From positions 4,030,001 to 4,094,000 of the forward strand of contig JAOVFP010000009.1 in the NCBI GenBank assembly GCA_025738555.1: DNA of 64,000 nt, read 5' to 3'. Below the pieces are notes generated by a model. It was not told where the DNA came from and ran no database searches. It saw only the letters and a program-made list of their open reading frames with translations. Both the position numbers and the translations under genes were made by a program. This stretch comes from Cyathus striatus (lineage: Eukaryota > Basidiomycota > Agaricomycetes > Agaricales > Nidulariaceae). How positions within the stretch are numbered: position 1 is the stretch's first letter; each line of letters begins with the position of its first letter. Shown here in pieces: positions 6,812 through 49,346 of the stretch.

Positions 6812-7320
6812 CACCTCAGACAGGACTGAATCGGGGCGGGGTAAATATGGTACAAACAGATTTGTTTAACAATTAGAATGTGTACCAAAATCGGCTCCTT
6901 GAACAGATTCATGTTCATATTTAGAAAACAATGATGGATTGGTTCTAAACCCATATCGCATTTCCATATTGAGAAAATAACAATAGAACAAAGGTAGAAT
7001 CTGTGTGAAAAATTGGTTGCTAACACAGATTCTCACACAAATCCTGAATTGGAACACACATTTGTTTACTGATCCTATCTAAACACGGATTCTGGCTATG
7101 TTCAGCGTCCCTATCTTATCGCACATTCAAAATTTGTCCTGGTAACAGAGTCTGGATTGGTTTGTTTATCAGATCCACTCACCAATTCTAAATGTAATAA
7201 ACAATATGTTCTCCTACCCTATGTACATGCAGATTGTAAATATGGTAACGTATCATATTGATTGTCCCACTCACGGGGCCACTCACAAGCCACTCACACC
7301 CACTCATGGCCCACTCAACT
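6812..7320 (+). repeat. Left terminal inverted repeat of the 24-kb element
   Basis: Starts CACCTCAGACAGGA and is the reverse complement of 30468-30976 with scattered substitutions. It contains several dispersed variants of AACAGATTC/GAATCTGTGT, typical of transposase-binding subterminal repeats in CACTA-like elements. The match ends in a run of CCACTCA repeats. Confidence 0.85.
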
Positions 7321-7620
7321 CCCCGCTCCGTCCCCACTCAGTTCCTGCCTAGGGATGGAGCCGAGATGTTAGCCCCACACCTTGGGTTGATAAGGCTTTT
7401 TCAACCTTTATTATAGAACCGGGAGGTTCAATATAAGACAGTGAATGTTTCCTATTATAAGCTCTTTGTAGTAACAGTGATTGAGAATACAATAAGAAAC
7501 AATAAGAATATACTTGTGCGCTATAAAAGAGGATGGCAAGCTTTGCTCGGCAAGTGCCCGGCATCATATCCAGCATTGAATACTTATAGTCATGGTTCAT
7601 TCTGGAGTCGTTAAATCACA

Positions 7621-8653
7621 ATGTCTAACTTGTCGATCCAGGAAGCAGAACAGGTTCTTCAAAGAGCCGTTGTTCGCGAATCCGCACTCAGGTCCTTCCC
7701 ATACCACATTCTTCAGCAACTTTGTAAAGACAATCATGTGAATGTTCAAGTGACTGGTTGAAGGAAGCCGGGGGTACCAATTAAGAACGACTTCATAGTT
7801 GCACTTGTTGCATATAAGAATGGTCAAACCCAAGCATTATCAACAGCTCCTAACTCAAGGAAACGACCAGCGAAAGGCGAACATGAAGAGTCTCCTCCAA
7901 AAAGAAAAAGAAAAAGGTTAGTTATTAAGACTTCTCTTCAAATGTCAAAATTCGAAGGCTGATATTGTACTACAGAGGAAATACCTCTAATTCGAGAAAA
8001 CGATTGGCCGAAGGCGAACATGAAGAGTTGCCGAAACAGAAAAAAAAGAGGTATGTCCTAAGACTTCCCTTCTGCCTTCTGCCTATCTCACTGAGTATCC
8101 CGAATATTCTAAAGAGTACACGAACATCCAAGCCACACCAATTTTCAGTATCAGCATCTCCCCTATGAGCTAATAGATTGTGACACACCGGAAGCAGTAA
8201 CACAGAACATCGAGTCTCCACAATTAACATACATGGAATCCGATACAGTTATGGATGTGGTTAGAAATGTAATAAATTCTACAAAACCTCGACATACCAC
8301 AGTGAAGGTGCCACGAAATAAGGATGTTGCTGTTCGAGTGTACAAATCTGAAAAGGACTGGCGACATATACACGAAATGTCTTGCGTCGTCGATGACGAA
8401 GGGACTCTTCACCTGTCAATAATTGAAGAGCAGCTCCAAACATCAATGACAGTTCTAGTATGAAAATTTTATGAACTCACCATTAATTACTGACTATTTG
8501 TAGCCCATAGACCCTAAGAGATATCATCCTTATTATCAATATAATTCGGGAAAGCTTACTGTTGATGAATTGGATGACCTCATGGACCCAGAAGGATTCC
8601 TACGAGTAATTCTTTGCACCAATAAAAATATAGTAGATAAAGTTCGCCAATGA
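7621..8653 (+). pseudogene. SAP-like/basic nuclear-type protein, one in-frame TGA
   Basis: Four exons join in phase: 7621-7916, 7976-8050, 8115-8457, 8504-8653 (288 codons). The N-terminal 70 residues resemble a SAP/HeH helix-extension-helix DNA-binding motif (YHILQQLCKDNHV, then KNDFIVALVAYKN). Two Lys/Arg-rich, NLS-like blocks follow, one at the end of exon 1 and one in exon 2. Both begin NSRKR and contain GEHEE, so exon 2 looks like a duplicate of the end of exon 1. The C-terminal part is unrecognised. A TGA at about 7759 interrupts the SAP-like region; CGA to TGA is the simplest cause, although an in-frame 36-nt intron (GTGACT...AAG) could remove it. It is the first gene inside the left TIR. 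Confidence 0.55.
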
Positions 8654-8749
8654 AATGTAATATTATGTACAAATTTAAAATACTATGTTGAAGTCGAACA
8701 AGAAATTATAATACATGAGCAATGTGCAAGGTGTCATAAACGTATGCCC

Positions 8750-11680
8750 TTAAAAAAGTTTTTCCACAAATACTCCGAGATCCTGAGCCGGTACAACACG
8801 CATCTTCTTTGCTCTGTTCTGTCCTTTTACAGGACAGACTTCAATTCCCTGTTCCGTCAGGCCAAGTACCATGAATACTTCCCTGTACAGCTGGTGGTTA
8901 CAACAGTTTATGATCATTACACGTTCACCCTTCCTGCTAGGGGCTTCCGGGTGCACATACTCAGCTGGGACTTCAAGTTCTTGTCCACCTGTTATTTCCA
9001 CCCAGATAGATCTATTACTTCTCATCAATCCCAGATAGGTACCGCTGCATTTTTCATATCTGCTCCTTTCGAACCCAGAACTAGCAGCAGTTGGTAGAGA
9101 TCCTGAGATAACCACATGAAGATATCTACGATCCAAAAATGAGCTGTCCGCTTCGAGAAGTTGATTTATCCAGTGGCCTACGAAGATATTAATATCGGTC
9201 AATAATCCAGAACTGTAAGAATGATACACACTATCGAATGCATCTGTTGAAGCGTCACGAGCAGATGACCCTTCACCAATAACAGCCGTTCTCATCGAGT
9301 CTGGAAGAGGAGCAGATGCTTGCAAAGCAGACGTTGAAGCTATGTTTTCTGGAACTATAAACTTCTATTAGTGACGTGCGACAACATCAAAATGAGTAAC
9401 TAACTTCGATGGGGGTAGGCAAGCTCTTCGGCGGATACAACATTGGAAATCTAAGCCGAATATGATCAAGAATTAATCCTTTGCAAATGTAATTATAAGT
9501 ACTTACTTGCGGGGTTCTTGAGTTAGGATCCCAAGCTAGTGTTTGGGACCCGATCCCAGAATCATTTTCCCAAGCAGGTGTCAGACAGACATTCCGTGAA
9601 GGATGATCTGTAGCTCCTTCGAGGTCAAATGGCAGTATATTTGAAATGTTATATCTGTAATAATTTATTAGTTTTATAGATTGGAATACATATTGAGATA
9701 CGTAAATACCCAGGAATATATAAATCCATTATTGAAACCTCCTCAAGTTTGCTCATACTTATCAGGCGGGCTTCAACTTCAAGCTCGGCGCGACCATTGG
9801 CGTTAACACACTTTAGTATCCCAATGTCCCCCTTTTGAGGACCAGAAGTAACCACGCCATATAGCCCATAAAGCGACCGATATGGATCATTACGCATGAG
9901 CCTATCCTCAATAGTCCGACTCCCAGATGCATCTGGGGTGCTTGTGTCATTACTATCTTCCCACCTAAACGTACTATTTCTATGAACTTCGCTACAGAAG
10001 TCCAAATCTGAGGAGCGAACTGGTACATGTTTTCCCTGCTTAGTCGGTTAGAATAAAAATACTCTGGAATAAATGGGTTTAAAGTTACCTTCTTTAATGG
10101 AAAGGCGACAATTGTAATATTTTCCTCGCCTACACGCCCACACGCCTCCACATTTGTGACCATACCGACAACTCCTTTGTGTTCGCCCGACTTTACCCTA
10201 ACTCCGTCGCCAATCTTGAAGCACTTCTCAAGTAAATTTAATGGATATTCGAAGAGAACATCCGGTGAATGGAAGAGCCTAATCGTCGCGTTTTCTTCTG
10301 TGATATCTTCCACGAAGGCCAGAGAAACTATTCCTTGGAGGAGAACCTTTACCTGATCGTGTATATGTATATTTGCCAATAATACCGCACGTCTTGTCTG
10401 TTCCAAAACCTCCTTAGGAACTTGGCTACAGCGATCAAAGGATCTCAGTTCTTCCATTGTTGGTGTCCCTTCGACTTGATAGTGCTCGTCAGAATCGACT
10501 TTCCGACATAGTAAGAAACCATTGGCAGTATAAAATGATCCTCGAAATATATATCTTTTAATAATTTTATTATCGGCGTCTTCATATTCAACTTTGAACT
10601 TTTCCGGGCATGCTTGCCTTGCAAGTTCAGGGTTGAATAGCTCGCAGGCTGGTTTCGAGCTCGACGACGACTGCTTTCGTTTCGATGAATCCGTGTATTC
10701 TACTCGAGGCAACTGAACGACGTCAATCCGAAATGTGCGATCGCAGATGTTTATAATAAATGCCAGATCATATCGAAATTTTCCTTTGAGTCGTACCCAA
10801 GTATGCTTGTAGGGTGCATAGCTCGCGCCAACGTTTCCAAAGTAAGAATCCCACATAATATTTGGTGCAGGACGAATATGGAACTGGTCGACGTCGCCAA
10901 AGATTTTGGTAAATTTCTTCAGGTCTTCAAGATTAAGAGCCTCTGTGTAAACGTGCCCCGGGATAATGGACAATGCAAAGGCACTTCGAATGTGCTTGGG
11001 GCCAGCATGTAAATTGAGCTGGTATACAATCCGTTCCTCCGATCCATTCTACAAAATGTGAGCCAGATACTCGTCAGATCTGGTGACAACTCACTTACCT
11101 TAACTGGTATGTCATAAAGGGACCAGTCCTGAGCTACTCGACCGCGATGGGCGACATTGTGCTTGCTTACGACGGTTGTTGAAGTAGGTCCAGCGTGCGA
11201 ATGTGCACCTCCGCGTGAGAGGACATACTTTTCATAGAGACGGCCGATAATTTCTGGCTGTCGTTCAGCTTGAACCGAGCGCGCTAGCTCCAGCCAACAA
11301 ACAGGAATGTTGGGATCTTCATCATCATTTTCTTCGCTATCTACAATAAATTCTATAAAAATAGTTCTCAATCAGCATGTTGCATTCAGGTATTGCTATT
11401 TGATATACATACCATCCGGTTCCTCTTCGTCATTTTCATCCTCCGAGCCGGAAGCCACTTGAGCTTCCAGATCTAAAAACGTCTATACCCTGAAGTTAGC
11501 AATTGCGTTACTATATTGAGATGGTTTCATTACCGCTACTTTAGCTCTCTTTGTTTTTCTCCACCGAGGTTGAGGTACCTGATTTTGAGATACTTCATCA
11601 TCAGGGTCAAAGTACCATTGAATCTGGCTCGCATCTTTCAAAGAACCATCTTGATTCAGTGCACAGTTGTCTTCGGCCAT
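8750..11680 (-). CDS. Spt5-like transcription elongation factor (NGN and KOW domains), intact
   Basis: Eight exons on the minus strand splice in phase: 11680-11534, 11482-11413, 11352-11099, 11048-10089, 10035-9710, 9654-9507, 9450-9405, 9354-8750. They give 851 aa with no internal stop. The start (MAEDNC) is followed by an acidic region with SEDENDEEEPD, as in the Spt5 N-terminus. About residues 160-250 form an NGN-like domain (SIIPGHVYTEALNLEDLKKF). KOW-type motifs follow (GDGVRVKSGEHKGVVGMV; YGVVTSGPQKGDIGILK) and a last KOW-like block lies near the C-terminus (VMIIN...HQLYREVFMV). TPAWDP-like SRTP text lies in exon 6. Spt5 (with Spt4) promotes RNA polymerase II elongation, but this protein lacks a repetitive C-terminal tail, so it is an Spt5-derived paralogue carried by the 24-kb element rather than the housekeeping gene. 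Confidence 0.85.
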
Positions 11681-12015
11681 TGTATGCTAAAGTATCTATG
11701 GTAGCTACTATATCTACTTCAACTATATCTATGTTGTGTTGAGGTAATGAGAGTACAAAGGAAAGAACCCGCAACACCCGCTTTCTATTTATTGGATATG
11801 AAAACATTTAGGGCAGGCTCTTCAGGCACGTGACATCTCCACACGCTCCCTGCTCGTTCCCCGCTTCATTCTCCACGCCCTCATATTCAAAGCAATGCAC
11901 TCTTGTATTGTCCAACATATGAATTGAGACCAGCCATAGTTTAATATAATTGTTTAAGGCGCGTAGTTTATATCTGTATAGTCCGATATCATTATTTAAG
12001 GCGTGTAGTTGTTAT
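11681..12015. other. Intergenic spacer with a partial palindromic-repeat copy
   Basis: No gene is seen. At about 11804-11860, ATTTAGGGCAGGCTC followed by CCCCGCTTCATTC resembles parts of the repeat unit found twice at 13.5-14.7 kb. The sequence just right of 11680 is presumably the promoter of the Spt5-like gene, but no clear core element was identified. Confidence 0.35.
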
Positions 12016-13153
12016 TTAAAGCGCATAGTTGCGAAAACTGAAATCTAAATTCCATTTCTCCAACGACACTGAAGCCACATGCATCTGAACCCACTCTCCA
12101 ACCATCTCGCTTGATAATAGTACCTGGAAACATAGAACAATCAATATAATAGATAACGTCTGCATATAGGTCAATGATTCAGTATTCCGGACTTTCTCTG
12201 GAGTGGAGATGCCCTTCGATGTGTTATGCTTGTAGATGGAATTACAATTAACAATAAATATGAGCAGCAAGATAGAAGGCTTACAGCAGAAGTTGAGTTC
12301 CATAGCTTAATTGGATAGTGTGTTTCACGATTATCAGCTTCTGACGATCCTGTGGCTATTATGCATATTGAACTGATCGTGGCACACTTAAAGAGACCGT
12401 ATTAGCTCCTGTCTCAATTCTAAACGAAATATACTTACGTCGACAATCTGCGTTAGAATATTTCTTTCGTGTGGCAAAGACGTCTGCATATTCCTGAAAC
12501 GCGAAAACACACATGGAAACCCGTCGTCGCTACCAACAATTATGAGGGAGCCTTGTCGACCACATGCGAGATGCATGGGGTAATTGCGGGAAATTGGATC
12601 CTCGTAGGTCTTTAACGGCTGGGAAGGTGGGAGAGCGTATGTGTCGACTCCGTTGAACAGGTTGGAAACATGCATCTCTTTTCCAGACATGACTGCATGA
12701 CCACTGGTACAGGTAAGTGGTAGGTAAGAAACTTAGCACACAAGGTAAATACCTACATTCGAGACCTTAAGCGATAACTCCATTGGTGAGTCCAAGGATT
12801 AACTTGATAGTTAATGCTATTGCAAGAGATCAGTCATAGCATGACTATTGTAATCGCAACAGTTATTACAAGAGTTATTACTCACATTTCGTGCGTTTCC
12901 AAAACGGAATATAAGATCAGTACAGTGAGTGGCAAGTCTATAAATCCATGTAAGTACTTACCTCCACTTAGAAGCTTTGATGCATCCGGGCTTAGCTTTA
13001 AAACATTTATGGGCTTCATATGGTAACTCAGCGTTTGAGTAGTCTTGAACTAAGTATTATTCCGTTAATCTGTTGGTTCTGGGACATGAAAGCGAAAGCA
13101 ACACTACACACCTTAGGAATATCGGCTTGAATGGACATTGATGCTGTTGAGAT
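12016..13153 (-). pseudogene. WD40-membrane protein, internally deleted copy
   Basis: Minus-strand pieces match, in order, the intact gene at 21240-23019. An N-terminal piece near 13050-12960 reads YHMKPINVLKLSPD and SKLLSGG before a GTAAGT donor. A central piece (12700-12440) has NLFNGVDTYALPP and LIIVGSDDG. A later piece near 12370-12290 has ICIIATGSSEAD and PIKLW, and a hydrophobic stretch follows. The exons that would carry the middle WD40 repeats are missing between the first and second pieces. It is thus a deleted paralogue, inverted relative to the intact copy 9 kb away in the same element. Confidence 0.6.
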
Positions 13154-13489
13154 TGGTTACTGAATGAAGAGTACGAAGGGAGTATAGAGTTCACGATAAG
13201 AGTACGCATACATTTTATAGGAGATAGATGCCAGTACTATTATTGTAGGAAAACTAGGAAAACACGTCGCTAGATGCAGTTAATTGTAATATTTTTCGAC
13301 AGTGACAGCAGACTTACCTGTTGAATAGGGAGTCGCAACCTATTATCGCAAGATTTAGTTAGCATTTCAAGGATGACAGAAAAACAACTAACCAGTGAAC
13401 AATCCATATTTTGAAGCTGTCAAACGCCCAATTGTTCCCTCCGGTCCCCATTAAGATTAGTTCATCGTCAAGTATGCTTTTCTTTCGTT

Positions 13490-14873: not shown

Positions 14874-16746
14874 ATGTCAAACAACCAACACCCTCCTGTC
14901 GAACCTGGTCATCCTTACTACCCCGTTCCTAAAAGGCTAAACCATAACCGGTCTCAATCTCTCGTCAATGAGCCGGTGCGTAAAGTTGTACAATGAAATA
15001 ATACTATGAACTTACACCTTCTTTCTAGGCAGTTACACGATACGCCCGTGTTAGGGTTGAACGAAGGCCTGATGAATATGAACCAGTACCAGTAACTGAG
15101 AATCTGTTTGCTACCTGGCACCCAGACGCAGAAGATAGCCAGGTATCTGGAGTGGTGGATAGGGTTTCCGGGCTCCATTGTGATACACTAGTATGTAACC
15201 TAATTACTCTCCCTTTTATCTCCTTAATCTCATTGTGTAGGTCCCCAGTCTAATGGGACCATCCCCGACTGTGCCACCGGTGCAAACCAAATCCTTGCCC
15301 CCTCGACTTTCTGGTAATGTTGTTCCCAATTCCTCGCCCAACCACCAGCAACCAACAATACCTTCGAATTTTCAGCCAACCATTTTTCCACAGTGCTATT
15401 CCCTAGAGGAAGTAAGTATCTACATACTTGTATACCGTGCCTTATCTCAACTTTTTAGATAACATTTCTATCGCGGCATGTCACCACTTCTCTTGGACCA
15501 GAACTTCAACGTTACAATGACCAGCTTGTCCAATCCCTCACAGGTTTACTAAACGCGCTCCCAGGAGCTAATACGAGCCCTAGCCCGATTAATGGCCCAA
15601 GTTCATCTGAGGATGATGGCATGGACGCTGCAGATGAAAGCAACGATTTAGCGGTACGATCTCCTAGGAAGCACTCCAAAAAGACCACAGATGAATTACA
15701 GTTCAATGTAAGTTTGATCTTTCAATTACAGGACTGAACCTTCTAATGATTCTCACAAAGGAACACCTACGAAATTACCTTGCTGCGAAGAGGCTGTGGT
15801 ATAAAGATGCTAAAAATTTTCGCAGTCCTCCATCTGAAGCGCTTCTTGAAGAGTTTGAGGATCGTAGAGCAGTACCAGATGTTGCATCCCCAATGCTTGA
15901 TTGGATGTCTCCTTTATCATCTGATTGGAACACAGAGATGATCCGGCTCCTTGCTTTGGACTACCAAGCACTGCTTAACAATCAAAGTACATGGGATAAT
16001 ATCCTCATTACTGAGGATGATATGAAGATGGAAGCCCTAGCAGTTAAGATCAAGAGTAGATTAGAACATAGTGTTACGGCATATCGGGCCTTACAGCCGC
16101 CATCTGAGGACTCCGATGAAACACCACATTCAAAGAAAGAGAGAATTAAGCTAAGTGGGGTTGCAGAGAAAGTAAGAAACCGATGTTTCACTCGTAGGGA
16201 AGGGGTATGTGTTCCATTATGTTTGTTATCCAACTTCGCACTGCTGAGATTCTTATGCAGACATGGAAACACCGAGGAAAAGTTATCAAGGCTCGCCTGT
16301 CTAATAAAGAAGAGGACAATGAACTATGGAAGGAGGTCAAACACATTCATGAGATACTGGGAGTCGATGGGATGAGCTTGGACAAAACGGAAGTCGAAGG
16401 TACAACTACATGGCGGAAAGTAGTTCGGCGAAGGGTGAAAGCTTGGCAAAACAATAGTATTTCTAATTTATTCAGGAACGTAGAAACTTACGGTACTGGC
16501 CTTTGTAAGGGAGGCGGTAACATTCATTGCTTCAGGGAACATGGTGCATCTACATCCGGAACGAAGGCTGGAAAAAAGACCAGGAAAGACCAACAATGTG
16601 TCAAAGGACTTCCGTCGAACTATTACGATCAAACTTGGTATAAGGCTCTTACTAAAGGCCAAAAGACTGTATTGGATCCTCAGCCTCCACGGGAACTACC
16701 TGACACAGTTCGTAAAGCTTTCCTTATACTATGTATTAGTTGCTGA
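14874..16746 (+). CDS. Hypothetical 537-aa protein of the 24-kb element, intact
   Basis: Six exons join in phase without stops: 14874-14975, 15029-15190, 15241-15411, 15459-15707, 15761-16204, 16261-16746. The N-terminal 170 residues are rich in Pro, Asn and Ser and look disordered. A serine/aspartate-rich patch (SSSEDDGMDAADES) and a basic stretch (RKHSKK) come next. The C-terminal half is charged and mostly helical, with a basic cluster (WRKVVRRRVKAW) and the motif GLPSNYYDQTWYK near the end. I do not recognise an established domain. From memory, proteins with this closing motif are multi-copy in agaricomycete genomes, which would fit a transposon-borne family. It lies directly upstream of, and in the same direction as, the transposase fragment. 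Confidence 0.75.
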
Positions 16747-17213
16747 AGAGTGATAAATGCAGACCGTGTTGCTGAAATGATACAAAGAAGCTAATATGAT
16801 ATGTACGTATACATGAAGTCATATATATTAAGCACAATTGCATACACGATTTCATTTTTACTTCTTTTCTTGTTTATTGTACATATGTAATATGTCGCCT
16901 CGGACCCCACATACTGCTCTTGTATATTGTAAATATGTAATATTTTGCCTCGGACCACAATGACTATTGTTTGTATATACCTTGATTTCATTTTTACTTC
17001 TTTTCTTGTTTACTGTACATATGTAATATGTCGCCTCGGACCACAAAGACTATTATTTGTATATACCACTTTCATACAGGTTATATTGTATATACATCAA
17101 ATACTGCTACTTCCATTCTCACGAGCAATTTTTCATACTTGCACGAATAAAGTTGATAGCTGCCCAGTTTTTCTCATAGTCCGGCCAAGTCAGTTTAGAA
17201 AGGGTTAGAAGTA
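16747..17213. other. Intergenic spacer with a short direct repeat
   Basis: A segment of about 130 bp (about 16850-16930) recurs at about 16985-17060, both containing TTTCATTTTTACTTC and GTAATATGTCGCCTCGG. A third, partial match lies between them (GTAATATTTTGCCTCGG). No gene is seen. Confidence 0.45.
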
Positions 17214-18721
17214 ATGTCGTCCCAGCCAACATCTTCAGGACTACGCAGATTGTCTATTCCCGTGTTGCAATCACTTTGTCGACACGTGAGACGAGTTGGT
17301 CGAAGGGTTAAGAAGCAGCAATATGTTAACGTACTGGTAAGTCATTTCTCTTTTTAATAGTTCACCATTAATTAATTAGATGAAAGCTTGAAATCTCAGG
17401 ACCCAGGGAACGTAATGATGATCCCCACTCGATAGAACGTGCACGTACAATCATCCATGATTTTGCCGATATCGAGATAGATACTGAAGGAACAAGCCCT
17501 GAAGAGGAATTCTCTAGAACTCCTCTTCTCGAACACGATGATTTAAAGAAGATACAAGAAGATATTTTGCATACGATCCGACCGAGCTGGCAAGCAGGTC
17601 CCCCAGTAAACTTTGGTTCACCGTCTCATGGGAAATTGAAAGCCGATCAATGGCGGACCTGCATTGACTACAACCTGACTGTTTCATTGGCGAAAATGTG
17701 GGGTGGTGGAGAAAGTAAAAACTCGGAAATAGATGGAAGGAAACAAAAAGCGGTTGAAAGCACGCTGCTTCTCGCCATTGCTATTCGTTACGCTACATCA
17801 CACCGAGTTCAACCCGGACTTCATGACATGGAATTCAAGAAGTTCATATTAGCCTATCTTCATTCAATTCAAGAACTGAGGCCTGATGTCGACCTTCATC
17901 CCATTCATCACAATGCTATCCACCTGGCGACATACCTGTCATTGTTCGGACCAATTCATGGTTGGTGGATGTTCCCATTCGAGCGGTTAATTGGCAATTT
18001 ACAAAAAATAAATATCAACTTTAAATTTGGTGAGTTTTATTGGCTACTTTGTATTACCTGCACTGATGGATCTTTAGGAGAGCTGGAAGCATTGATGTTG
18101 AATGCTTTCTGTGCTGTGTCGGAGCTGCGTGTATTCTTACAACGCCCTGGATGTCCCGAAATTATCAAACGGAGTAGTGAAATCATGCAAGAGTGTTTTC
18201 CTGATGTTCAGTCTGGGACATTGATTCACGATATGCGATTGTTGGCGGATGATACATGTCAGCCTACCAGCAGGAAAGATATTAAGCTTGATTTGGAAGT
18301 GTTACAAGCGGCCGGCTTCGCGGATGATACTAGAGTCACTGAATATGATCGATATATAGTCAACGGACGCCAGCTATCATCAAAGCATAACACATTGAGA
18401 AATAGCGTAATATTCTATAAAGATCCCGATTCTGAGCAGCTAATTCCAGCCATAATTCGACACATTTTTGAAGTAATTGACGAACAAGGGTGTATTTTAT
18501 TCGCAGTCCACCCTTATAGGCAACGGGCAGACATACCAAGCGTATTCGACCGATTTGAAGAGTTTGGTGTCAGTCTCTGGAAGGATTTATTAGATGAGAG
18601 AGTTCGCGTAATCTCAAACAAGATTCAGATCTACCCCGCGATCAAGCGCAAATGGACTGATGGAGTTTTGGCCTTGAAGCCCTATATTCATGTACGCATT
18701 GCTATTGGGCTATCTATTTAA
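17214..18721 (+). CDS. CMC/EnSpm-type transposase, C-terminal part only
   Basis: Three exons join in phase: 17214-17336, 17387-18029, 18078-18721 (469 aa). Exon 2 contains KLKADQWRTCIDYNL, and residues about 190-260 contain HPIHHNAIHLA and FGPIHGWWMFPFERLIGNLQ. These are hallmarks of the C-terminal region of fungal Tnp2/EnSpm-like transposases, where the glutamate of the PFER motif is probably the third catalytic carboxylate of the DDE triad. The two upstream catalytic aspartates and the rest of the RNase H fold are absent from this gene and were not found elsewhere in the 24-kb element. The N-terminus is instead a short basic leader. It may be a remnant that leaves the element non-autonomous, or a shortened protein with a retained role. 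The first intron uses an AAAG acceptor at 17386. Confidence 0.7.
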
Positions 18722-18816: not shown

Positions 18817-20319
18817 TTAGTCCATTTCTTTAAGTAGTTGCTTTATGAAGTCACCGCTGTCGGGGCGACGTATCCATATGTCGGGAGAACAACTTACTGA
18901 CTCCAGCTCGGGGCAGTACATCCAAAGCTTCATTATAAAAGACTGCATGTAGTCCTTGCTTTTGGTGAACCGCGGGCTATTTCCATAAGGTGGGTGTATC
19001 GTTAGACTCCTTAGCCTTGAAGCGTGCTTCATTAATTTGATAAAGTAGTCCTAATAATCTAATTCAGGTAGATGGCTGGGAAAGATGGCAACACAACGCA
19101 CATGATAAAGAATTTCTGAACAATCCAAACGGATATCAATCTTTTGACATTTGCGTATGGCACTAATGTCGGGTATGGAGCACTTGCACTGCATTTTGGC
19201 CACCATATGTTTGTCCATCGAGTAAGGAAGCACAATGGTAATGCTCGTGTCGGAATCGAAAATGTACGTGGATTGGAGAGGGGAAGTAATGTTCGCTATG
19301 GCCCTGCAGAATTCGTGATTATCTGGATTGGGAAATGAATCAGATAGTCGAAGCTGAATTGTCTTCAATGAAGACGAGACGGCTGTCAGCTGGAACTGCT
19401 CGCTACATGTAATATCGGTAACACTCTCTGGTATCTTGATGAACCCCTTCCTGACTGACTTACATCCTTCCGGTGTACAACAGATCCATAAACGTTGTAG
19501 TTGGCACATAGCGGAAGACGTGGTGGACGGCACAAATGAAAATGGTTCGTCACAGGAGATCAAGAGTGTCTTTAGGGTCTGCAGCGATCAACAAACCAAG
19601 ATTGGTACGATATCTCTTCCACTTTTCCCTATGATGCTTAAAAATTCTAGCGACGGTCCGTCCAGAAGCACAGACAATATATCAAGCATTTTCGAATCAC
19701 CGAAGATGTGAGTCGCTATACGGAGGTTTCATAGCCCAACTGCAACACCGTTTTTGATTATGTCGCAAGGTATCTCCGGCGGACATGGTAAGGCTACCGT
19801 GGAACACAGTACTCGTGGAGAGTAGGTGCTGTCAAGGCCAACACTTGTACAAGAAGAGGGGAGACTCGCCAGAATAGCAGTGATGGAACAGATGACTTGG
19901 AGCTCTGCCAGCAGAGTATCTTCTCCATCATCATAACTATGAACTATGGTGAACTCTTCCATACCAAAAGCCTTGCTTAAGAATGTACGTAGTCCTGTAA
20001 GGTGCTCTAGCACACAGTGTAGGCTGACATCTACTCTGAGGCGTCGGGAATGTGTGGATAGATTCGCTAGAAGATGAATTGTAGCTGGACTAACGACTCC
20101 TTTAAGCGATATATTGGTACATCCGAAAATGTCGGTGGTCAGCGCTCCTTGCCTTCTAAGAAACACTTCCGTAGTAGCATAGCGCAATTGTTGATTAGTG
20201 TGGATCAGCGACAACATGCAACCATCCTCTGCTTGAATAATTATCAAGTCGACCAATTCCGCTGGAAGGTTCAGAATGGGGAAGACAGGAGCCTTATTAC
20301 ACTGCTTCTCGACAATAAT
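18817..20319 (-). pseudogene. F-box protein pseudogene with three C-to-T type nonsense codons
   Basis: One minus-strand frame of about 500 codons begins with a clear F-box (FPILNLPAELVDLIII) and continues with leucine-rich text such as LEFLSIIG and LKTLLISCDE and, near the end, SRLRSLTIH. It is interrupted by TGA at 19731-19729, TGA at 19590-19588 and TAG at 19053-19051. Each is explained by one C to T change (CGA or CAG). An in-frame start is missing: an ATG at about 20342-20340 is one frame off. F-box proteins recruit substrates to SCF ubiquitin ligases, and the family is greatly expanded in agaricomycetes. Here the gene is dead or needs recoding. It is convergent with the transposase fragment. 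Confidence 0.65.
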
Positions 20320-21239
20320 CTAGAAGTTGAAAAATTAGACATGAAATGTTCAAGTGTCTATTTGCTTAAACATACCACTTTTCGTCGTTTTCGGATGCCC
20401 TTACTTAAGGGGCTGTTAAGTTTTTGAGTACTGCGTTTGTAACTACCGCCCTTTACACTGATGCCTTTGACAAGGGTCCTTCTGATTGCCCGTGCAACAG
20501 AAGAATACTCCTGAGTTATTTGGTTAGATATCGAAGAACATAGCCTGGTAAGTTTCTATTACCACATACCAGGTCGCAGCTGAGAGGTCTAACAATGTTT
20601 CGGATATTTGCCATTTGTCGAAATGAATTGAAGATTATAGCTTAAGACTGGGGAGGAAATATATGCAGTGAAGATTGGGGAATGGTAATGTTGATATGCT
20701 TCGGCATTGAATGAATTAGTAATTACTTTATACAAGTTGACCGTTTGTTTTCGAATGGGCGTATAGAATTCATTCGCAAATCACAATTAACTTTAGCCTC
20801 TCCACAATTCACAAAAGGTTGATGAATCATGGCAATGATAATATGTCAGCAGCCTTCGATATCAAGGGGGCGTCGGTCTGGTAGTCCCTAGGCCCGATCC
20901 ATAAAATGATGTGATATGAAACACAGTGGCGTTCAGCAATGGGATGGACTCTGCTGTCAAACTGCTATTGTTTTTACTACCATCCACTGAACAAGCGCCA
21001 GTCGGTCTCCATAAGAGAATCAGATGGTGTCGAACAATAATTTGTTCGCTGAGTCGTACTCTATCTTTCTTTTATCTACATGACTCACAATTCCATTAGA
21101 CTAGCTAGATTAAGCATGCTCCACTTTCGCCGAGTGAGCGAAGAAATGAGGTATCAAAACAATACAATAGGTGTGATATGCATCTGGATACTTATACTAT
21201 TGCTACGACGAGGTGTGGTTCCATCACACCGCCCTCCTC
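20320..21239. other. Spacer between the F-box pseudogene and the WD40 gene
   Basis: No supported gene. Short frames on both strands lack motifs. The right part (about 20760-21240) presumably contains the WD40 promoter. Confidence 0.35.
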
Positions 21240-23019
21240 ATGAAGCCAGATACTCTCGCTGTGCGTACTTATAAATTTTGTGTTTGCTTTGAGGAATTAA
21301 TTTTTGCAGTTTGACTTGGAATATACGTTCACTCGTCATTCGAAGGCGATCAGCGCATTAAAGTTAAGCCCGGATGGTACAAAATTGGCCAGCGGTGGTA
21401 GGTGCAATTTCATACTATAGATTGAGCATTATACGAATGAATAAAATACCCTTCCAGGTGATGACGGACTTGTAGTAATATGGGACCTGGATACTGGTGA
21501 AAGCCTTTGGGAAGCGTCCGTAATTGGGGAAGTTACTACAATCTGCTGGGCCTCGTTCCCCAAAACTGGTACCACAGTGTTATATTTTGGAACTGGAAGT
21601 GGTATAATACGGGGATATCAGGAAGATACCTTCGGTGATAGTTATGAACAAGTGTTGGCAATCTCTGCGCATGATGGCCCCTTGGAGGACTTGAAGTTTG
21701 ACCCGTTCCATAGTCAACTTGCTTCACTCGGCGAAGGTTACCTCAAGGTTTGGAACTTAAATTTTCCAGGTAAGCAATTCATCTTCGAAATCCCATTCAT
21801 TTCCCACTTAATCTCTTTAGGTCAGGCCACGTTATATGTGGAGACAACTCCTCTTCCTCACATGGCTAGAAATGTTGCATTTATTGAGAATGGAACAGAA
21901 CTAATTCTTTGTTATTTGGAATCCCGTGAAATGTATGTCACATTGTCCTTCCATTTGTAAAAGTGTTAAATCATGCGGCGCCAGTTTCTGCTATCAAATG
22001 TCACCTTGGAAGATGCGATGGATCCATGAGATACACACCAGAATGTTAGTCTTTTGCCGTCCCAATTACGTTAACTCACCCAGTATCATTTCTTAAGTGG
22101 TCACGCAATCATTAGCGCCGACAATGATACTTTAATTGTTTCAAATCTTAGAGATGGTGTCGACATTTATGCTATACCGCCTGTACAGCCGCTTCGATCA
22201 CTAAAACATGCCATTCGCTCAAATGTACCTCTCGTTGTCTCAACAGCATTCGAAGGTGAACTGGTTGTTGTCGGCAGTGATGATGGAGTAGTACGTATAT
22301 ATGATCAGTGTTTGGGAACATTAATCGCATTATTACCCCATGGCTATGGTAAGTTATTATGATATATGTATGCGGCTGATGTCACATTAACTGTTCTGTT
22401 GTTAGTTAGTACACTAGTCCAAATCACTGAGGTTTGTTCAATGTGCCTAGTACACGAGCAACTCTAATTACGGTTACAGGCATTCAGTTCTGATGAGCAT
22501 TGTGTTATTGCGACTGGGACATCAGATAAGGACGCCATCGAAATAAAAGTATGGATGTCAGGCACCAGAAATTCACCTACCAGTACCTTCCCGAAAAATC
22601 ATCCGTGCCCTACTTCTGAACAGACATCTCATATGCAAGTATTTCAGCAAAGAATGCCGGTGGTAGTTGAAGTGGCCGGCGGGATCGCTATCTTTTGTCT
22701 ACTATTTATTTACATTGTAGGGTTCGACTACTTGGTAAACGTCGTGGCTTTTGCATTGTAATTTGCTCGTCAAATGCTACAGGACATCTCCGACAGACGT
22801 TGGGCATTATCCCTCTATGGAAGCCCCCCTCCGACGAAGACCGAAGTTGATGAAGATTTATTGAGATGGAATGGATTTGGGACCAACTATGAGAGATTTG
22901 ACACCTCAAACACCCATACGGCTTCCAGGACACAAGACAACCACCTCACGGTGTGCGCTCCCCCGGAGATGCCTCTATTTACCCCGTCCTGGTGCCTTAC
23001 CCTCGGTATGGCATCCTGA
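21240..23019 (+). CDS. WD40-repeat protein with C-terminal membrane segment, intact
   Basis: Nine exons join in phase to 460 aa: 21240-21260, 21310-21397, 21458-21769, 21821-21932, 21964-22044, 22098-22348, 22406-22431, 22480-22734, 22783-23019. The N-terminal 330 residues carry WD40 repeats (ALKLSPDGTKLASGGDDGLV; VIWDLDTGES; YLKVWNLN; LVVVGSDDGVVRIYD; ATGTSD..IKVW). A hydrophobic helix follows (about residues 355-380, GGIAIFCLLFIYIVG), then a hydrophilic tail of about 80 residues. The fourth intron would be only 31 nt, the weakest part of the model, although the total frame closes exactly. WD40 propellers are protein-interaction platforms; a membrane anchor on one is unusual. A deleted paralogue lies at 12.0-13.15 kb. 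Confidence 0.75.
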
Positions 23020-23840: not shown

Positions 23841-24868
23841 ACTTGGCCTACTTCTCCCCCCCCCACCCCCCACGACTAACCAACGACCAACGACGATGCT
23901 CCTCCACTCACAATCACGACTCAGTGCCGTCTACGTGGAGTAGACGGTACGTTCTTTCCTCAACGTCTGCCGTCTGGTCCCCACAGGCACGAAAATGCAT
24001 CCCCTACAATGTGTCCCCTACCTCAACGTCTCCCACAACTCGTTTCCTTCTGCTGCCACCACCACCGCCTCCTCGCTGACTTTTCTCCTACCTCAACATC
24101 CCCCACCTCAACGAACACGCGTCCCCTACCACGCGTCCCCTACCTCAACATTCCCCACTCAACGAGCATGCGTTCCCTACCACGCACTCCCTTCTGCCAC
24201 CACCACCGCCTCCTTCTCACCAACCCCTACCTCAATGTCCCCTACCTCAACGTCCCCCACAACTCGTTCCCTTCTGCTGCCACCACCACCGCCTTCTCCT
24301 CGCCGACCTGTTCCCTACGTCAACGTCCCCCACCTCAACTCGTTCCCTTCTACTGTCACCACTACTGCCCCCTCCTGGCCGACCCGTCCCCTACCTCGAC
24401 ATCCCCCACCCCAACTTGTTCCCTTCTGCCACCATCACCACCTTCTCCTCGCCCATGCACACCCTCACCCTCCTCTCCTCCACACATGGCCTTACCCTCC
24501 TCCTAAGCGGCACCAGCCTCTCCCAGTCCACACTAGACACAGCCATCTCCAGTGCAGTCCTCAAGCCAGCATCGTACCACTTCATCTCTACCACTGGCGC
24601 CTTCAACTCACCTCACTCCCAAGCGGCTTACTTCGACACATACTTCCCCAAAGGGTATTTCGACAGCAACGAAGGGAAGAGGCTGAAAGAGCAGCACTGG
24701 TACTGGCTCAGAGGCCGCTACCTCAACGTCCCCCACCTCAACGAGCATGCGTTCTCTACCACGCGCTCCCTTCTGCCACCACCACCGCCTCCTCCTCACC
24801 GACCCTTATCTCAATGTCCCCCAATCTCAACGTTCCATTCTGCCATGTGATATCGACGCCACGCACAT
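23840..24868. repeat. C-rich degenerate minisatellite with an embedded coding-like fragment
   Basis: Degenerate repeats of CTACCTCAACGTCCCCCAC and CTTCTGCCACCACCACCGC fill this stretch; read in frame they give YLNVPHLN-like text. A non-repetitive block inside it (about 24460-24715, with FDTYFPKGYFDSNEGKRL in frame) looks like protein-coding sequence with higher GC than the rest. It may be a captured piece of a host gene; the family is unknown. Confidence 0.45.
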
Positions 24869-24875
24869 ACGTCGG

Positions 24876-27800
24876 CATAAGTGTCAGCTAATTTGGATCA
24901 TAAAAAGCCCAGGTTTTATGAAAAAGTGATCACAAAATCCCTGACTTCCATGATCACTACTAAAATCTAATGGTATTCATTATTATTAATGAATGTATGA
25001 GTGATCAAAGGTGATCATTGGATGTTATAATAGTGTATGATGGATATTAAAGGGCATATTTACTACTAATGAATACTAATGAATGTGAAAGTGATCATAA
25101 GTGATCATGATATGATATAATGGTGTATTATAGTGTGTAATGACTACTAGTGAATACTAATGGATGTGTAAGTGATCATAAGTGATCATGGTATAGTATA
25201 ATGGTGTACTATAGTGTGTAATGACTACTAGTTAATACTAATGAATGTGGAAGTGATCATATGTGATCATGATATGTTATAATAGTGTTTAATAGTGCAT
25301 AATGACTACTAGTGAATACTAATGAATGTAGAAGTGATCATAAGTGATCATGGTATGTTATAATAGCATATTATTGTGTGTAATGCCTACTAGTTAATAC
25401 TAATAAATGTAAAAGTGATCATAAGTGATCATTGTATAAATAATAGCATATTAATTTATAAATGAATATAGGAATATCACATTTTCCCACATGTCACACC
25501 TGTCACGCTCGTCACATTCGTCACATATGTCACGCTCCACATATTTGTCACATATGTAGTATTTGTTATACTTGTCACACTTGTTGTGTATGTCACATAT
25601 GTCACACCTGTCACACCTGTTACATATGTCACGTATGTTGCATTTGTCATACTTGTCACACTTGTTGTGTATGTCACACCTGTCACACCTGTCGTATTTG
25701 TCACATATGTCACACGTCTCATGTATGTCACACCTGTCACACCTGTCGTATTTGTCACACATGTTATGCATGTCACATTTATTATGCATGTCACATGTCT
25801 CATGTATGTCATATTTGTCACATGTGTCACAGTATGAATGTCATCCTCATATTTGTCACACCTGTTGTATATGTCATGTATGTGCATTTGTCACACTTGT
25901 CACACTTTTTATACATGTCACACCTGTTATATATGTCACATTTATCACGCATATCACATTCTTACATGTCACGCTTGTCAGATTCGTCACACCTGTCACG
26001 CTCGTCACATATGTCACATATTTTACTACTTGTCACATATGTTTCACTTATCAATTCCATCTGTCACAAATGTCACCCCTTCCCTATATGTTACAAATGT
26101 CACATTTTCTGTATTTGTCATTCCTTTCCTGTATGTTACACTTGCACCCATATCACACTTGTTATGCTTTACATTTACACCTTTCCCACATATCATTGTT
26201 AGCATATTGATCTCACAAGTAAATTTACTTGCCATACAGATTACATCTATCACAAATTTTACCACTTGTCACATATGTCCCCCTATATTACCACATGCCA
26301 TGCTTTTCTTTTCCTGCTACCCATCACACCATTTCTGCCACCAATTGTTGTCTGAAGCAACAAATAATGAAGGGGGGTAGGTTGGGAGAGAGGGGGGTGA
26401 TAAGAGATGAAAAGCTCAGACACAGACACAGACACAGACACAGATACAAATACAAATAGGGAAACTTGTGGTCAACTATCAAATTACAGGGGTTTATATA
26501 CTAGAGTTATCAACCAAAGTCCTACCAAGGCCTGAACCAGAGGCTGTACAACCCAGAATATCTAACATTGTACCTTTCCTGCCACCTGTTGCACATTTCA
26601 CACTTTCCCTATTCACCACCACATCCATCACATCTTTTCTCATATATCACATAGTACTAATTGTGTACTACCTTCCTACTATCACATCTCTTATCTCTTT
26701 GTCTTACTTCATGTTTAGTCCAATTGTGTTGTTTAATTCATGTCACTCATTCTACTATGGTTCCATGTTATTGTTAAAACTTATAACTTTCTAATGTCTC
26801 AAGTCTTGATGTCAATATGATACTGTTTTCATGTCCTACTAGTACTTATCTATTCATATATGATAAGTGTTATATGAATAATGCTTGAAGAGTGTGACAG
26901 GTATAACAGACAGGAAAAAGGGTGACAGATGTGGAAAGCATGACATTTGTGACAGATGAGAGTAATAAGTGTGATATATATGACCAGTAGTAAAATGTGT
27001 GACATATGTGACGAGTGTGACGAATCTGACAAGTGTGACATGTAAGATAAATGTGATATGCATGACAAGTGAGACAAATCTGATAAGTATGACATGTAAG
27101 AATGTGATATGCATGACAAATGTGATATACATAACAGGTGTGACATGTATAAAAAGTGTGACAAGTGTGACAAATGCTACATACATGACATATACAACAG
27201 GTGTGACAAATATGAGGAGCGTGACATTCGTACTGTGACACATGTGACAAATGTGACATGCATAACATGTGGGACATGTGTGACATACGTGACAAATATG
27301 ACAGGTGTGACAGGTGTGACATACATGAGACGTGTGACATATGTGACAAATACGACAGGTGTGACAGGTGTGACATACACAACAAGTGTGACAAGTATGA
27401 CAAATGCAACATACGTGACATATGTAACAGGTGTGACAGGTGTGACATATGTGACATACACAACAAGTGTGACAAGTATAACAAATACTACATATGTGAC
27501 AAATATGTGGAGCGTGACATATGTGACGAATGTGACGAGCGTGACAGGTGTGACATGTGGGAAAATGTGATATTCCTATATTCATTTATAAATTAATATG
27601 CTATTATTTATACAATGATCACTTATGATCACTTTTACATTTATTAGTATTAACTAGTAGGCATTACACACAATAATATGCTATTATAACATACCATGAT
27701 CACTTATGATCACTTCTACATTCATTAGTATTCACTAGTAGTCATTATGCACTATTAAACACTATTATAACATATCATGATCACATATGATCACTTCCAC

Positions 27801-28170
27801 ATTCATTAGTATTAACTAGTAGTCATTACACACTATAGTACACCATTATACTATACCATGATCACTTATGATCACTTACACATCCATTAGTATTCACTAG
27901 TAGTCATTACACACTATAATACACCATTATATCATATCATGATCACTTATGATCACTTTCACATTCATTAGTATTCATTAGTAGTAAATATGCCCTTTAA
28001 TATCCATCATACACTATTATAACATCCAATGATCACCTTTGATCACTCATACATTCATTAATAATAATGAATACCATTAGATTTTAGTAGTGATCATGGA
28101 AGTCAGGGATTTTGTGATCACTTTTTCATAAAACCTGGGCTTTTTATGATCCAAATGGCTAACACCCCTC
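24876..28170. mobile_element. Foldback element N with 7-bp target duplication, nested in the 24-kb element
   Basis: The left end reads CATAAGTGTCAGC, the same terminus as copies A and B, and the right end GCTAACACCCCTC. ACGTCGG lies directly outside both ends (24869-24875 and 28171-28177). The arms are almost perfect inverted repeats over about 0.9 kb or more. Each arm has a subterminal region, then tandem 81-bp units with paired GTGATCA sites (unit starts near 25091, 25172, 25253, 25334 and 25415, mirrored at 27.6-28.0 kb), then arrays of TGTCACA-type repeats. The centre holds a small solo LTR. Cys/His/Thr-rich frames in several phases are repeat translations, not genes. It is a non-autonomous relative of copies A and B with different arm sequence. 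Confidence 0.85.
26349..26567 (+). repeat. Small solo LTR (about 219 bp) in element N
   Basis: Starts TGTCTGAAGCAAC and ends CAGAATATCTAACA, matching 60126-60442 at both ends and in the internal ACAGACACAGACACAG tract and TTTATATACT text. TTGT flanks both ends, a possible 4-bp duplication. It is shorter than the 60-kb copy because the ATCTGTCAATCA repeats are absent. Confidence 0.55.
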
Positions 28171-28177
28171 ACGTCGG

Positions 28178-29030
28178 AGCTAGGTCAGCCCCTTCCCCTA
28201 GCTCGAGTCAACACCGCCTGCTACCTCACATCTCCCAGCACCGTCTATGCATCGTATGCCCTGTCCCCCCCTTCTCTGCGGTCCCCTTCTCCCACCACCA
28301 CTCCCTTTTCCGGACAATAGTGTGCGCCAAGGGGTTGAAACAGTTCGTTGCTGCCGATATGTGATATATCGGTCGCGTGTCTAGTGCATATGACGGAGGG
28401 AGGAGAACCATGCTGTTGGATGAAAGAGTCGAAAACGTATACTGCATGCAACGGGTCACCGAGGGTAAAGAAGGCGTTGGCATATGCAGGCGGCTCACTC
28501 CTCTCAAGCCTCAATGGGGTCAACGGTGAATGCGTAACACTAGACAACAATGTCGTCAGACTCGCATTAGACGCTCCCTCCTCGCTCCTCGAAGCTGCGG
28601 TGTGTATCGCAGGCACTGAGCACACGGAATGCAGCGTCATCGCCCTCTGCAGCCCCACCGTCTCTCGACTAATATCAATCACATCGTCTAGTGAGACAGC
28701 AGCACTCGGTAACACACCCAGCAGCGTGCTGAAGTTGCTTCCCTGACCAGACCTTTCGAGGGATGGGTATGGGTGGAAGCTCATGGTTCCGCTGACTGGT
28801 TTCATAGTCAGGGAGCACAGTAGTTGTGCTGGTGCAGGAACTCCTGCGCTCGGCGTAGTGGGACATCATCCTTCGCAAGCCAAAATCGAACCCGGGCTCA
28901 GAGAAGGGCGCATAACTCCATGCCGTCACCTTCTCCCCACGTCGTCTCGCTATGACCGCCCCCTCCCCTGTGTCTGCATCACGATGACTGTCTTCTACGA
29001 CTATGGCATCCCCTTCTCCAGTTCATTCTA
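28178..29030 (-). pseudogene. GC-rich fragment, possible captured host coding sequence
   Basis: CpG-rich sequence with overlapping minus-strand frames. One (28929-28675) includes VLPDYETSQRNHELPP, and another (28805-28245) continues with serine/threonine-rich, coding-like text. A frame change between them suggests a broken gene piece or an unresolved intron. No family is recognised. It borders element N, and a similar GC-rich fragment lies on the element's other side. Confidence 0.3.
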
Positions 29031-29741
29031 ACGTAATTCATTTCTTCAGTTCAACGCTATTATATTCTTTCCATCCACTGTTCCTTAAGCTGAATTAACC
29101 TTGTATGTATGACGCTACTGTATCACCACCAGCAACACTACGCCGTCTCGCAGCACCACCACCCCATGGTTTTGCACCACCCCCATCTTGCACGACCACG
29201 CCACATCCACCTCAGTGCATAGCCATGGCCTGTCTCTCCCACTTGTACCCCACACGGTTGTTCTACCTCTACATCATGTAAAGCCTCTCCCCCTCACGAT
29301 GAGTTTATATATATTCATGGATTTATCTATTAATTACAATATGTTTTAATGTACGTTTACTATCTAAGTACTAAGTTTTAACCCCCTCCTACACATCATC
29401 CTTCGGCTTCGACCACAGCTACGCTAGCACACCCCTCATGCTTCTGCGACATTGCCTGGTGTTGCTGCAAGATAATCACTGGCAATGTCAAATTCTAGTA
29501 ACCCATAGTGTCGGTGTATTACTGCGTTTAACATATTTTATTGTTCAATTCGACCAAATAGTGCCTCCCTAGTTGATGCAGAGCTCTATTGTCTCGTTCT
29601 CCATACAGGTGCTCATCCATTCTCCATACCAACCCATCTATTCCTATTTGGTGAGGTGATATTGTTCTGAATTCTACATGTTTCCTTCCTTGTTAATTAT
29701 CTTTTTTTTTGTCTCTCAGACTATAAGTACACATCTACATC
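29031..29741. other. No gene seen
   Basis: Mixed C-rich and AT-rich sequence without a supported frame. The text just before 29742 is presumably the promoter region of the next gene. Confidence 0.35.
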
Positions 29742-30384
29742 ATGATGGGTACGTTAAAAATGCCTGCCACTAGAAACTACCGTGTTTTGCGCCATTTCTC
29801 TCCATTGACTATACGCTCACGATTTTCGCCGGAACGTATTCTGAGCCCACCTCCGTGCACTCTTAGGACTTGCTTTCCACAAGAAGAGGACACTGAGCCG
29901 TCAACAAGCTCTGGAGTACTTATTCCTAAACCCCGGGGTGAGGCAGGAAAAAATTATAAAATAGTTGACCATGTGGAATGCAGCCAGGAGCGACTTAGCA
30001 ATATGGAGGTGATAATTTATTCCAGAGCAATATTTATTTTCTTACCATTGTGACATGCAGAACTATATCATTCAATTAGCCCACAAGGAGTTGGATTTCG
30101 GAATTACTTACACTGCTCAGGAAAGCAGTAAACTTGATATTGTATGTGAGAAGGTACATCTTTCCACTAATTATTGTGACAATATCTAACGACCAGTTCT
30201 GAAGGCCGCAGGTCGATATCCTGATCTTTGTAGATATGACAGCAACTGGCTGACTCTTGATATTATCAAGATCAAAATGCGAAATTTCCGAAAAAGTCGC
30301 CGAACACCAGTCACATCTGCAGTTGAAGGAGTATCTGTAATGAAGAGGAAAGAAGCCAGGGTCGTTCGTGGCACAGGAGCTTGA
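29742..30384 (+). CDS. Small basic hypothetical protein next to the right TIR
   Basis: Three exons fit in phase: 29742-30008, 30061-30141 (or to 30153), 30205-30384, giving 175 or 179 aa. The N-terminus is basic and proline-rich. The middle contains KPRGEAGKNYKIVDHV and the end is strongly basic (KMRNFRKSRRTP). The piece GRYPDLCRYDSNWLTLDII resembles a short motif I associate with small multi-copy agaricomycete proteins, but I cannot name a domain. It lies about 80 bp inside the right TIR and faces outward, mirroring the SAP-like gene at the left. Confidence 0.55.
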
Positions 30385-30467
30385 GTAGAGTTTCAAATTT
30401 TCATTTTTTATTTCTTTGCATATATGGACATATCTGCTGTGCGGGAAATTGTATATATGTATTGAGT

Positions 30468-30976
30468 GGTTGAGTGGGTTATGAGCGGGTGTGAGTGGCC
30501 TGTGAGTGGCCCTGTGAGCGGGACAATCAATATGATACGTTACCATATTTACAATCTGCACGTACATAGGGTAGAACAACATATTTTTGATTACATTTAG
30601 AATTGGCAAGTGGATCTGATGAACGAACCAATCCAGACTCTGTTACCAGGACAAATTCTGAATGTGCGATAAGATAGGGGCGCTGAACATAGTCAGAATC
30701 CGGGTTTAGATAGGATCAGTGAACAAATGTGCATTCCAATTCAGGATTTGTGCGAGAATCTGCGTTAACAACCAATTTTTCACACAGATTCTACCTTTGT
30801 TCTATTGTCATTTTCTCAATATGGAAGCGCGATATGGGTTTAGAACCAATCCATCATTATTTTCTAAATATGAACATGAATCTGTTCAAGGAGCCGATTT
30901 TGGTACACATTTTAATTGTTAAGAAAATCTGTTTGTACCATATTTACCCCACCCCGATTCACTCCTGTCTGAGGTG
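30468..30976 (-). repeat. Right terminal inverted repeat of the 24-kb element
   Basis: Mirror of 6812-7320, ending CTGAGGTG directly before the TTA duplication. The last internal gene stops at 30384, just inside this repeat. Confidence 0.85.
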
Positions 30977-49339: not shown

Positions 49340-49346
49340 CACATTT

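Follow-up and report, generated by a model that had tools for sequence, protein, structure and literature searches.

A large EnSpm/CACTA-type transposon family of Cyathus striatus with a probable accessory gene set including an Spt5-like gene

Fungal EnSpm transposons (CACTA elements of the CMC/CMCT clade) have, according to the parts of Kojima (2025, PMC12730594) cited here, CAC...GTG ends, 3-bp duplications and a Tnp2-like DDE transposase, and their extra genes include a TET/JBP dioxygenase thought to counter silencing. The same source describes Plavaka as CMCT-type transposons of Agaricomycetes, with 2-3-bp duplications and the termini CATCA...TGATG (PlavakaB) or TGT...ACA (PlavakaA). En/Spm families of Chondrus crispus are on record with 16-20 kb and 4-5 open reading frames (ORFs) (Kojima et al. 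2013, as cited in PMC6431247). Here we describe a large element at positions 6812-30976 of a 64-kb window (the whole stretch of DNA analysed, C9:4030001-4094000) of the genome of Cyathus striatus, which was searched in full (107 Mb, 24 contigs). The element and its close copies, termed family A, agree with the fungal EnSpm of PMC12730594 in their ends, duplications, kind of transposase and possession of extra genes, but no TET/JBP match was found among the family A ORFs and gene models scanned, and six other genes are present instead. The Chondrus elements are likewise oversized, multi-ORF EnSpm; their host is a red alga, and the likeness noted here is one of size and ORF number. The explanation that we favour, and consider probable, is a large (about 24 kb) EnSpm/CACTA cut-and-paste family with a fixed accessory gene set that serves the element.

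Since enlarged red-algal EnSpm and TET/JBP-bearing fungal EnSpm have been recorded, multi-gene EnSpm elements are a known kind; the gene set, Spt5 above all, appears to be new. The main text of PMC12730594 contains no mention of Spt5, WD40, F-box, elongation factor, SAP domain or Cyathus, and no transposon with this gene set or with Spt5 was found in the open-licence literature, among the matches listed.

The ends of the element and its insertion site are defined by the following features (window positions):

6809-6811, no strand: left copy of the target site duplication (TTA), read from the flank; single copy in the empty sites
6812-7320, plus strand: left terminal inverted repeat (TIR), outer end CACCTCAGACAGGA, from self-comparison and genome search
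29900-30468, no strand: right subterminal sequence, whose 21 matches lie in 18 elements and one sister-family copy
30469-30976, minus strand: right TIR, outer end TCCTGTCTGAGGTG, from self-comparison and genome search
30977-30979, no strand: right copy of the target site duplication (TTA), read from the flank
49028-49347, plus strand: gap-free empty site, where a related copy of the host repeat lacks the element (further ones at 46092-45784 and 4527-4219)

The two TIRs are 93% identical (475 of 509 ungapped columns, one of which is a flanking base), and the element runs from CACCTC to GAGGTG with TTA on both sides. When its flanks are joined, they match window positions 49028-49347 at 95.9% identity, gap-free across the junction, as well as 46092-45784 (95.8%) and 4527-4219 (94.8%), each with one 1-base gap distant from the junction; all three empty sites have a single CTA where the element is surrounded by a doubled TTA. 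The joined flanks of another copy, E4, match window positions 48133-48849 (89.5%) and 6083-6745 (90.2%) with a single ATA; no gap lies closer than 58 bases to the junction, and those farther away are in tandem repeats. From these alignments it follows that the window copy and E4 were inserted at different positions of related repeats. The joined flanks of E2, E3, E5, E6 and E10 gave no junction-spanning match in the sequence compared; the crosswise joint of the E2 left and E3 right flanks gave matches of 79-86% within tandem repeats, which were not counted as empty sites. The insertion target itself consists of related inverted repeats with tandem arrays (window 45780-49347 and 4219-6800).

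A search of the genome with the TIR gave at least 41 matches, a lower bound because 40 of 301 first-look candidates were scored. Thirty-six of them form 18 inward-facing pairs, spaced 8.5 to 50 kb apart, and five are unpaired (C12:2954545, C1:1842091, two pieces at C7:4106713-4107141, and C3:1101983 with 74% identity). Both ends were read in all 18 pairs, and 16 of the elements carry matching 3-bp duplications: TTA (the window copy), ATA, ACA, TTA and TGT in a first set; TGA, TGG, ATA, TCA, TAT, ATA, TAA, TAT, TTA and TGT (an 8.5-kb copy) in a second; and TGT/TGT in the sixteenth element, whose outermost C is read as T. The TTA duplication claimed for this locus by the initial annotation, a reading made from the window sequence alone, therefore stands as to its length and its sequence here; TTA recurs in only some of the other copies. 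The seven elements compared over their whole length (the window copy and six others) share a colinear core of about 95-99.6% identity.

Could the paired TIRs be coincidental, belonging to independent short elements or to a segmental duplication? Nested insertions and deletions inside the copies, and the related repeats that flank both the window copy and E4, would fit such a view. Against it stand 18 pairs with the same outer ends and 16 matched duplications of differing sequence, and the empty sites of the window copy and E4 at different repeat positions refute it; we give this explanation practically no weight. Positions 6812-30976 are, on this structural evidence, one DNA transposon, and the proposal of a single 24-kb mobile unit with 509-bp inverted repeats is borne out by the TIRs, the duplication, the empty sites and the 18 pairs. 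The genome-wide TIR search that had been suggested as a check yielded many copies with 3-bp duplications and a shared gene block; the TIRs are not confined to this locus, and the refuting conditions that could be checked did not overturn the single-element reading.

The two elements whose duplications do not match are reciprocal: E2 (C18:456880-497164, plus strand) is flanked by TTA...TCA and E3 (C18:655997-680695, minus strand) by TCA...TTA. As each end of E2 matches an end of E3, we infer that the 159 kb between them were inverted through recombination between these opposite copies. Family A elements may in this way reshape chromosomes, the swapped duplications of E2 and E3 being an example. 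The 8.5-kb copy (C2:84448-92971) is a deletion derivative that retains both TIRs and its TGT duplications, and contains a stretch that by eye resembles a Tc1-type transposase.

Seven genes were modelled within the element:

7621-8653, plus strand: G1, small gene, modelled at 266 aa in copy E3; its N-terminal stretch is SAP-like by eye; no Pfam match; conserved in the sister family B
8903-11680, minus strand: G2, Spt5-like gene with NGN, KOW and TPAW tail motifs in the E3 model; exon 9816-11048 open in the window copy
12171-13049, minus strand: G3, WD40 gene, broken in the window copy by a 502-bp deletion at 12918/12919
14874-16732, plus strand: G4, proline-rich N-terminus and conserved C-terminal part, function not assigned; 616-bp deletion at 15326/15327
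17182-18718, plus strand: G5, 3' remnant of a Tnp2-type transposase, from comparison with other copies
18817-20510, minus strand: G6, possibly an F-box/LRR gene, with an LRR-like fold; in the window copy its main exon has two TGA stops
21310-22761, plus strand: G7, WD40 gene whose C-terminus has a hydrophobic stretch (seen by eye), from an open frame and model comparison

The transposase was read in copy E3, whose main exon (L015:1313-3010, minus strand) matches Transposase_21 (PF02992) with an E-value of 1e-11 and 44.9 bits (cut-off 28.6); the spliced 1,107-aa model scores 43.4 bits, and a match to DUF4218 (2.4e-4) lies below its cut-off. An alignment with eight relatives shows conservation of the Asp-containing motifs ISYDAFNP and CDLPGSRK. 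In CMCT-group transposases, C(2)C and H(3-4)H motifs follow the second catalytic Asp (PMC12730594, in the part cited); read by eye, the corresponding CSLC and MHNLYLGLVKHH (MHN...HH) are conserved between our transposase and its relatives. Protein searches (7,999 candidates scored) listed 104 relatives, including proteins of Coprinellus, Candolleomyces, Armillaria and Trametes. CAC...GTG termini together with 3-bp duplications occur in 16 of the 18 elements (in one with the outermost C as T), and the remaining two are the reciprocal pair. Because of the PF02992 transposase, these ends and these duplications, the element can be placed within the EnSpm/CACTA (CMC) group. The prediction of a CMC/EnSpm-type transposase is thereby confirmed on copy E3, and the "separate class of cargo element" that had been proposed falls instead inside EnSpm/CACTA.

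Other assignments were considered and rejected. Plavaka shares the short duplication, but the ends of family A differ from those of Plavaka (CACCTC...GAGGTG) and no Plavaka Pfam match was present among the proteins scanned. The KDZ elements (Kyakuja/Dileera/Zisupton) make 7-8-bp duplications, and those of family A are 3 bp long. Starships are mobilised by a tyrosine-recombinase captain (DUF3435) and carry variable cargo. Like them, family A consists of large gene-carrying fungal elements, but it has long TIRs, a Tnp2-type transposase and a fixed gene set, and a Pfam scan of the gene models and the ORFs (the small ones in part) gave no captain match. The contrast drawn earlier with Starships as elements of Pezizomycotina is outdated, since Starships have been reported in the basidiomycete Tremella fuciformis (PMC13066641, in the part cited). 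Size and gene number could also suggest a decayed endogenous virus or a Maverick-like element; the same scan of models and ORFs (the small ones again in part) gave no capsid, polymerase B or integrase, and with the 3-bp duplications and the Tnp2 transposase this leaves such an origin a vanishingly small chance.

The genome was queried with five of the genes, namely the Spt5-like gene (S), the unknown gene G4 (H), the transposase (T), the F-box/LRR-like gene (F) and the WD40-membrane gene (W), and the matches were clustered at 20 kb. The clusters are built from 77 of 101 rows for S, 77 of 77 for T, 37 of 43 for F, 36 of 39 for H and 38 of 69 for W; the rows left out are weaker fragments that fall almost entirely within the same loci, and some of those for W are cross-matches to the other WD40 gene. 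Uncounted Spt5-like fragments at other places lie at C11:132886 and C10:802567. Family A is represented by 17 loci, with all five genes at 12. A second family, B, has 24 loci, with all five genes at 12 and a single gene at two; its main transposase matches are about 70-76% identical to those of family A, and its other genes about 41-73%. In the family-B copy examined for TIRs, the right TIR is 75% identical to that of family A and the left one was not found. Wherever two or more of the five genes occur together, their order and orientation are, allowing for losses, S- H+ T+ F- W+; at one B locus (C11:389578) the arrangement is that of two elements face to face. A further 62 clusters contain only S or only T.

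For 18 hand-chosen exon blocks from all seven genes, E3 was compared with one family-B copy. The proportion of synonymous differences (pS) is 0.39-0.93 and that of non-synonymous differences (pN) 0.07-0.38, and in 17 of the 18 blocks the ratio of non-synonymous to synonymous divergence (dN/dS) is 0.08-0.54, with dS at 0.55-2.1; the last block is saturated. The coding strand was assigned from the open frames.

Since the same genes recur in the same order and orientation in two diverged families, the six genes beside the transposase appear to be a fixed accessory set rather than shuffled cargo. The initial annotation had seen at least seven internal genes, and the seven modelled genes, conserved in family B, agree with this; the cargo character that it gave them does not survive, because the genes form a fixed set, in fixed order, and not a changing load. 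Recent gene capture is ruled out by the conservation between families A and B. It may still be asked whether the genes are host cargo captured passively, in a Pack-type or Starship-like manner, which might serve the fungus rather than the transposon. They do resemble host kinds (Spt5, WD40, LRR), but the set, order and orientation are identical in both families and bear signs of purifying selection. Moreover, the F-box/LRR-like matches always accompany another of the five genes, and the unknown and WD40-membrane genes have just one lone locus each (C3:6711012, E-value 1.4e-4; and C3:1099458, beside the 74% TIR match). Capture of this kind is consequently quite improbable. DNA transposons usually carry little beyond mobility functions; family A keeps a seven-gene programme, which includes a paralogue of the universal elongation factor Spt5, under selection across a deep split.

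One would not expect an Spt5 paralogue in a transposon. In Pfam, five families match the 770-aa G2 model with E-values of 0.1 or less; every one is an Spt5 or KOW family, and along the protein they are arranged as NGN-KOW1-KOW5-tail: NGN at 144-207 (17.7 bits, cut-off 22.4), KOW1 at 232-353 (14.7, cut-off 22), KOW5 at 430-451 (25.2, cut-off 27), KOW at 434-452 (22.7, cut-off 22.3) and the C-terminal repeat at 591-616 (Pfam CTD, 18.8, cut-off 25.4). The window exon by itself gives weak KOW matches only. A profile (A1) of seven C. striatus relatives, compared with PDB, found SPT5 in 14 of 14 matches at E-values up to 1 (best 3.8e-7). Among the relatives, P0108 passes the cut-offs for NGN, KOW and KOW5, while P0105 and P0106 are slightly under the cut-offs, alongside chance-level matches to unrelated families. 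The host Spt5 locus (C20:1396051) reaches 72.5 bits for NGN, and the only other NGN match above the cut-off in the genome is the Spt5-like locus C22:1289612 (27.3 bits). G2 and the host locus are 25% identical over 332 columns (E-value 1.7e-11) and have in common a TPAW...TP tail motif; the G2 model has two TPAW motifs, and TPxW occurs in the tail of 11 of 17 C. striatus relatives. An NCBIfam scan of four proteins returned no families.

Protein searches with the Spt5-like gene returned C. striatus only (7 of 7 matches, and 16 of 16 with the profile), a result that may be due as much to the word-based filter of the search as to the real spread of the gene; the matches are not near-identical to it. 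In two annotated C. striatus proteins, P0119 of the A type and P0113 of the B type, a single model covers both a WD40 gene like G3 and an Spt5-like gene like G2, which places the neighbours known from the window side by side in a genome annotated independently. C- and D-type Spt5-like relatives (about 66-76%) are also found among the proteins of this species. The 77 Spt5-like rows used form 76 clusters including host Spt5, so that about 75 loci remain. These loci far exceed the elements of families A and B, and 36 clusters, host Spt5 included, contain S only.

At 8 of 28 loci with a more distant Tnp2 transposase (below 45% identity; family C), S lies within 20 kb of it. One family-C copy, in which both S and T are present, is without matches to the G1, G3, G4, G6 and G7 models; no element ends were found within the 20 kb of sequence taken. 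At an S-only locus (D, C14:3573823-3584738) the Spt5-like gene lies inside a 117-bp inverted repeat of unrelated sequence, TGTAGAGCAGGC..., 10.9 kb across. A clear duplication is lacking there, no transposase was recognised, and nothing matches that of the A type. To judge by the family C and D copies, elements of several kinds seem to carry the Spt5-like gene.

The copies decay mainly by C-to-T changes at CpG. Copy-specific changes were counted among the seven compared copies at sites covered in at least six of them. Of 1160 changes, 1005 are C>T or G>A, 849 of these in CpG; the rate is 0.358 per CpG and 0.010-0.023 in other C contexts. This is the pattern expected of CpG methylation, and it fits the many TGA stops.

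We propose that the Tnp2-type transposase would act on the long TIRs and insert the whole block at 3-bp targets, and that the six further proteins, encoded as a set that was kept across a deep split, would most likely serve to keep this long, probably CpG-methylated block transcribed. The Spt5-like protein may be a dedicated elongation or anti-silencing factor acting with RNA polymerase II, the SAP-like protein may bind the DNA of the element, and the F-box/LRR-like and WD40 proteins might be adaptors, possibly for ubiquitin ligases. The window copy, a deletion derivative, would be moved in trans by copies with an open transposase.

NusG paralogues of the RfaH/ActX type are carried by bacterial mobile elements. 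An elongation-factor paralogue on a mobile element is common to these and to family A, where its function is suggested by this likeness. The parallels with TET/JBP-bearing fungal transposons and with bacterial NusG paralogues support our best guess, a dedicated elongation or anti-silencing role. It is possible, although we would not call it likely, that EnSpm-type transposons of this lineage carry their own Spt5 paralogue as a dedicated elongation and anti-silencing factor, a eukaryotic counterpart of the mobile-element NusG paralogues that serve long operons in bacteria; the gene would then accompany transposases of three families, and also at least one element whose ends are unrelated, at about 75 loci in one genome. 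If the Spt5-like protein does aid escape from silencing, it would represent a novel means of countering silencing, in addition to TET/JBP, and would offer a way of studying the passage of fungal RNA polymerase II through methylated DNA.

Plant EnSpm elements use a second, DNA-binding protein. The accessory genes of family A might likewise be conserved for transposition itself, for example as a TnpA-like DNA binder with its partners, the Spt5-like protein having lost any part in transcription. The SAP-like stretch of G1 and the presence of the Spt5-like gene near distant Tnp2 transposases (the 8 of 28 loci above) would agree with this, but the TPxW tail motif, kept in the Spt5-like model and in 11 of 17 relatives, is hard to explain without the transcription machinery, and we regard this alternative as rather unlikely.

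Several points weigh against an accessory set that serves a mobile, methylated element. Mobility is read from the sequence of one genome, no transposition event having been seen. The 565-aa transposase query, with 77 rows in the genome, is fully open in only three family-A copies (on C18, C14 and C20), the remaining family-A rows having stops or partial coverage, and present activity of the family is uncertain. Of the five G2 matches in Pfam, KOW alone exceeds its cut-off; the NGN profile scan of the genome detects neither the G2 of the window nor most other copies, and the AlphaFold model of the Spt5-like protein is poor (mean predicted local distance difference test score, pLDDT, 33.8). Antisense control frames gave dN/dS of 0.19-0.37, since a constrained strand limits change in its complement as well, and dN/dS alone does not indicate the coding strand. 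Finally, one copy, E10, contributes 596 of the 1160 copy-specific changes.

The window copy itself is damaged. Compared with the others, it has three deletions of stretches that are present wholly or largely in the other compared copies: those of 502 and 616 bp in G3 and G4, and one of 2.73 kb at 17181/17182, which removed the front of the transposase. Of this third stretch about 1.0 kb is also absent from E10 (1.3 kb in all). Microhomology at the deletion junctions is slight or absent. The C-terminal part of the transposase is present, as first described, and is the only part of it left in this copy, which is therefore probably non-autonomous. Of the frames first described as fully open, that of G2 has its long exon open here. 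G3, G4 and G5 are deleted in part, and the main exon of G6 is interrupted by its two TGA codons.

The right part of the copy also contains a nested insertion:

24876-28170, no strand: nested insertion of 3,295 bp, its inverted arms 921 bp long and its duplication (ACGTCGG) 7 bp, private to the window copy among the seven compared

Its arms are minisatellite-like, and it resembles hAT7/Kyakuja by duplication length alone. No tRNA was found in the 64-kb window, and a 500-aa open frame is located outside the element, at 35896-37395.

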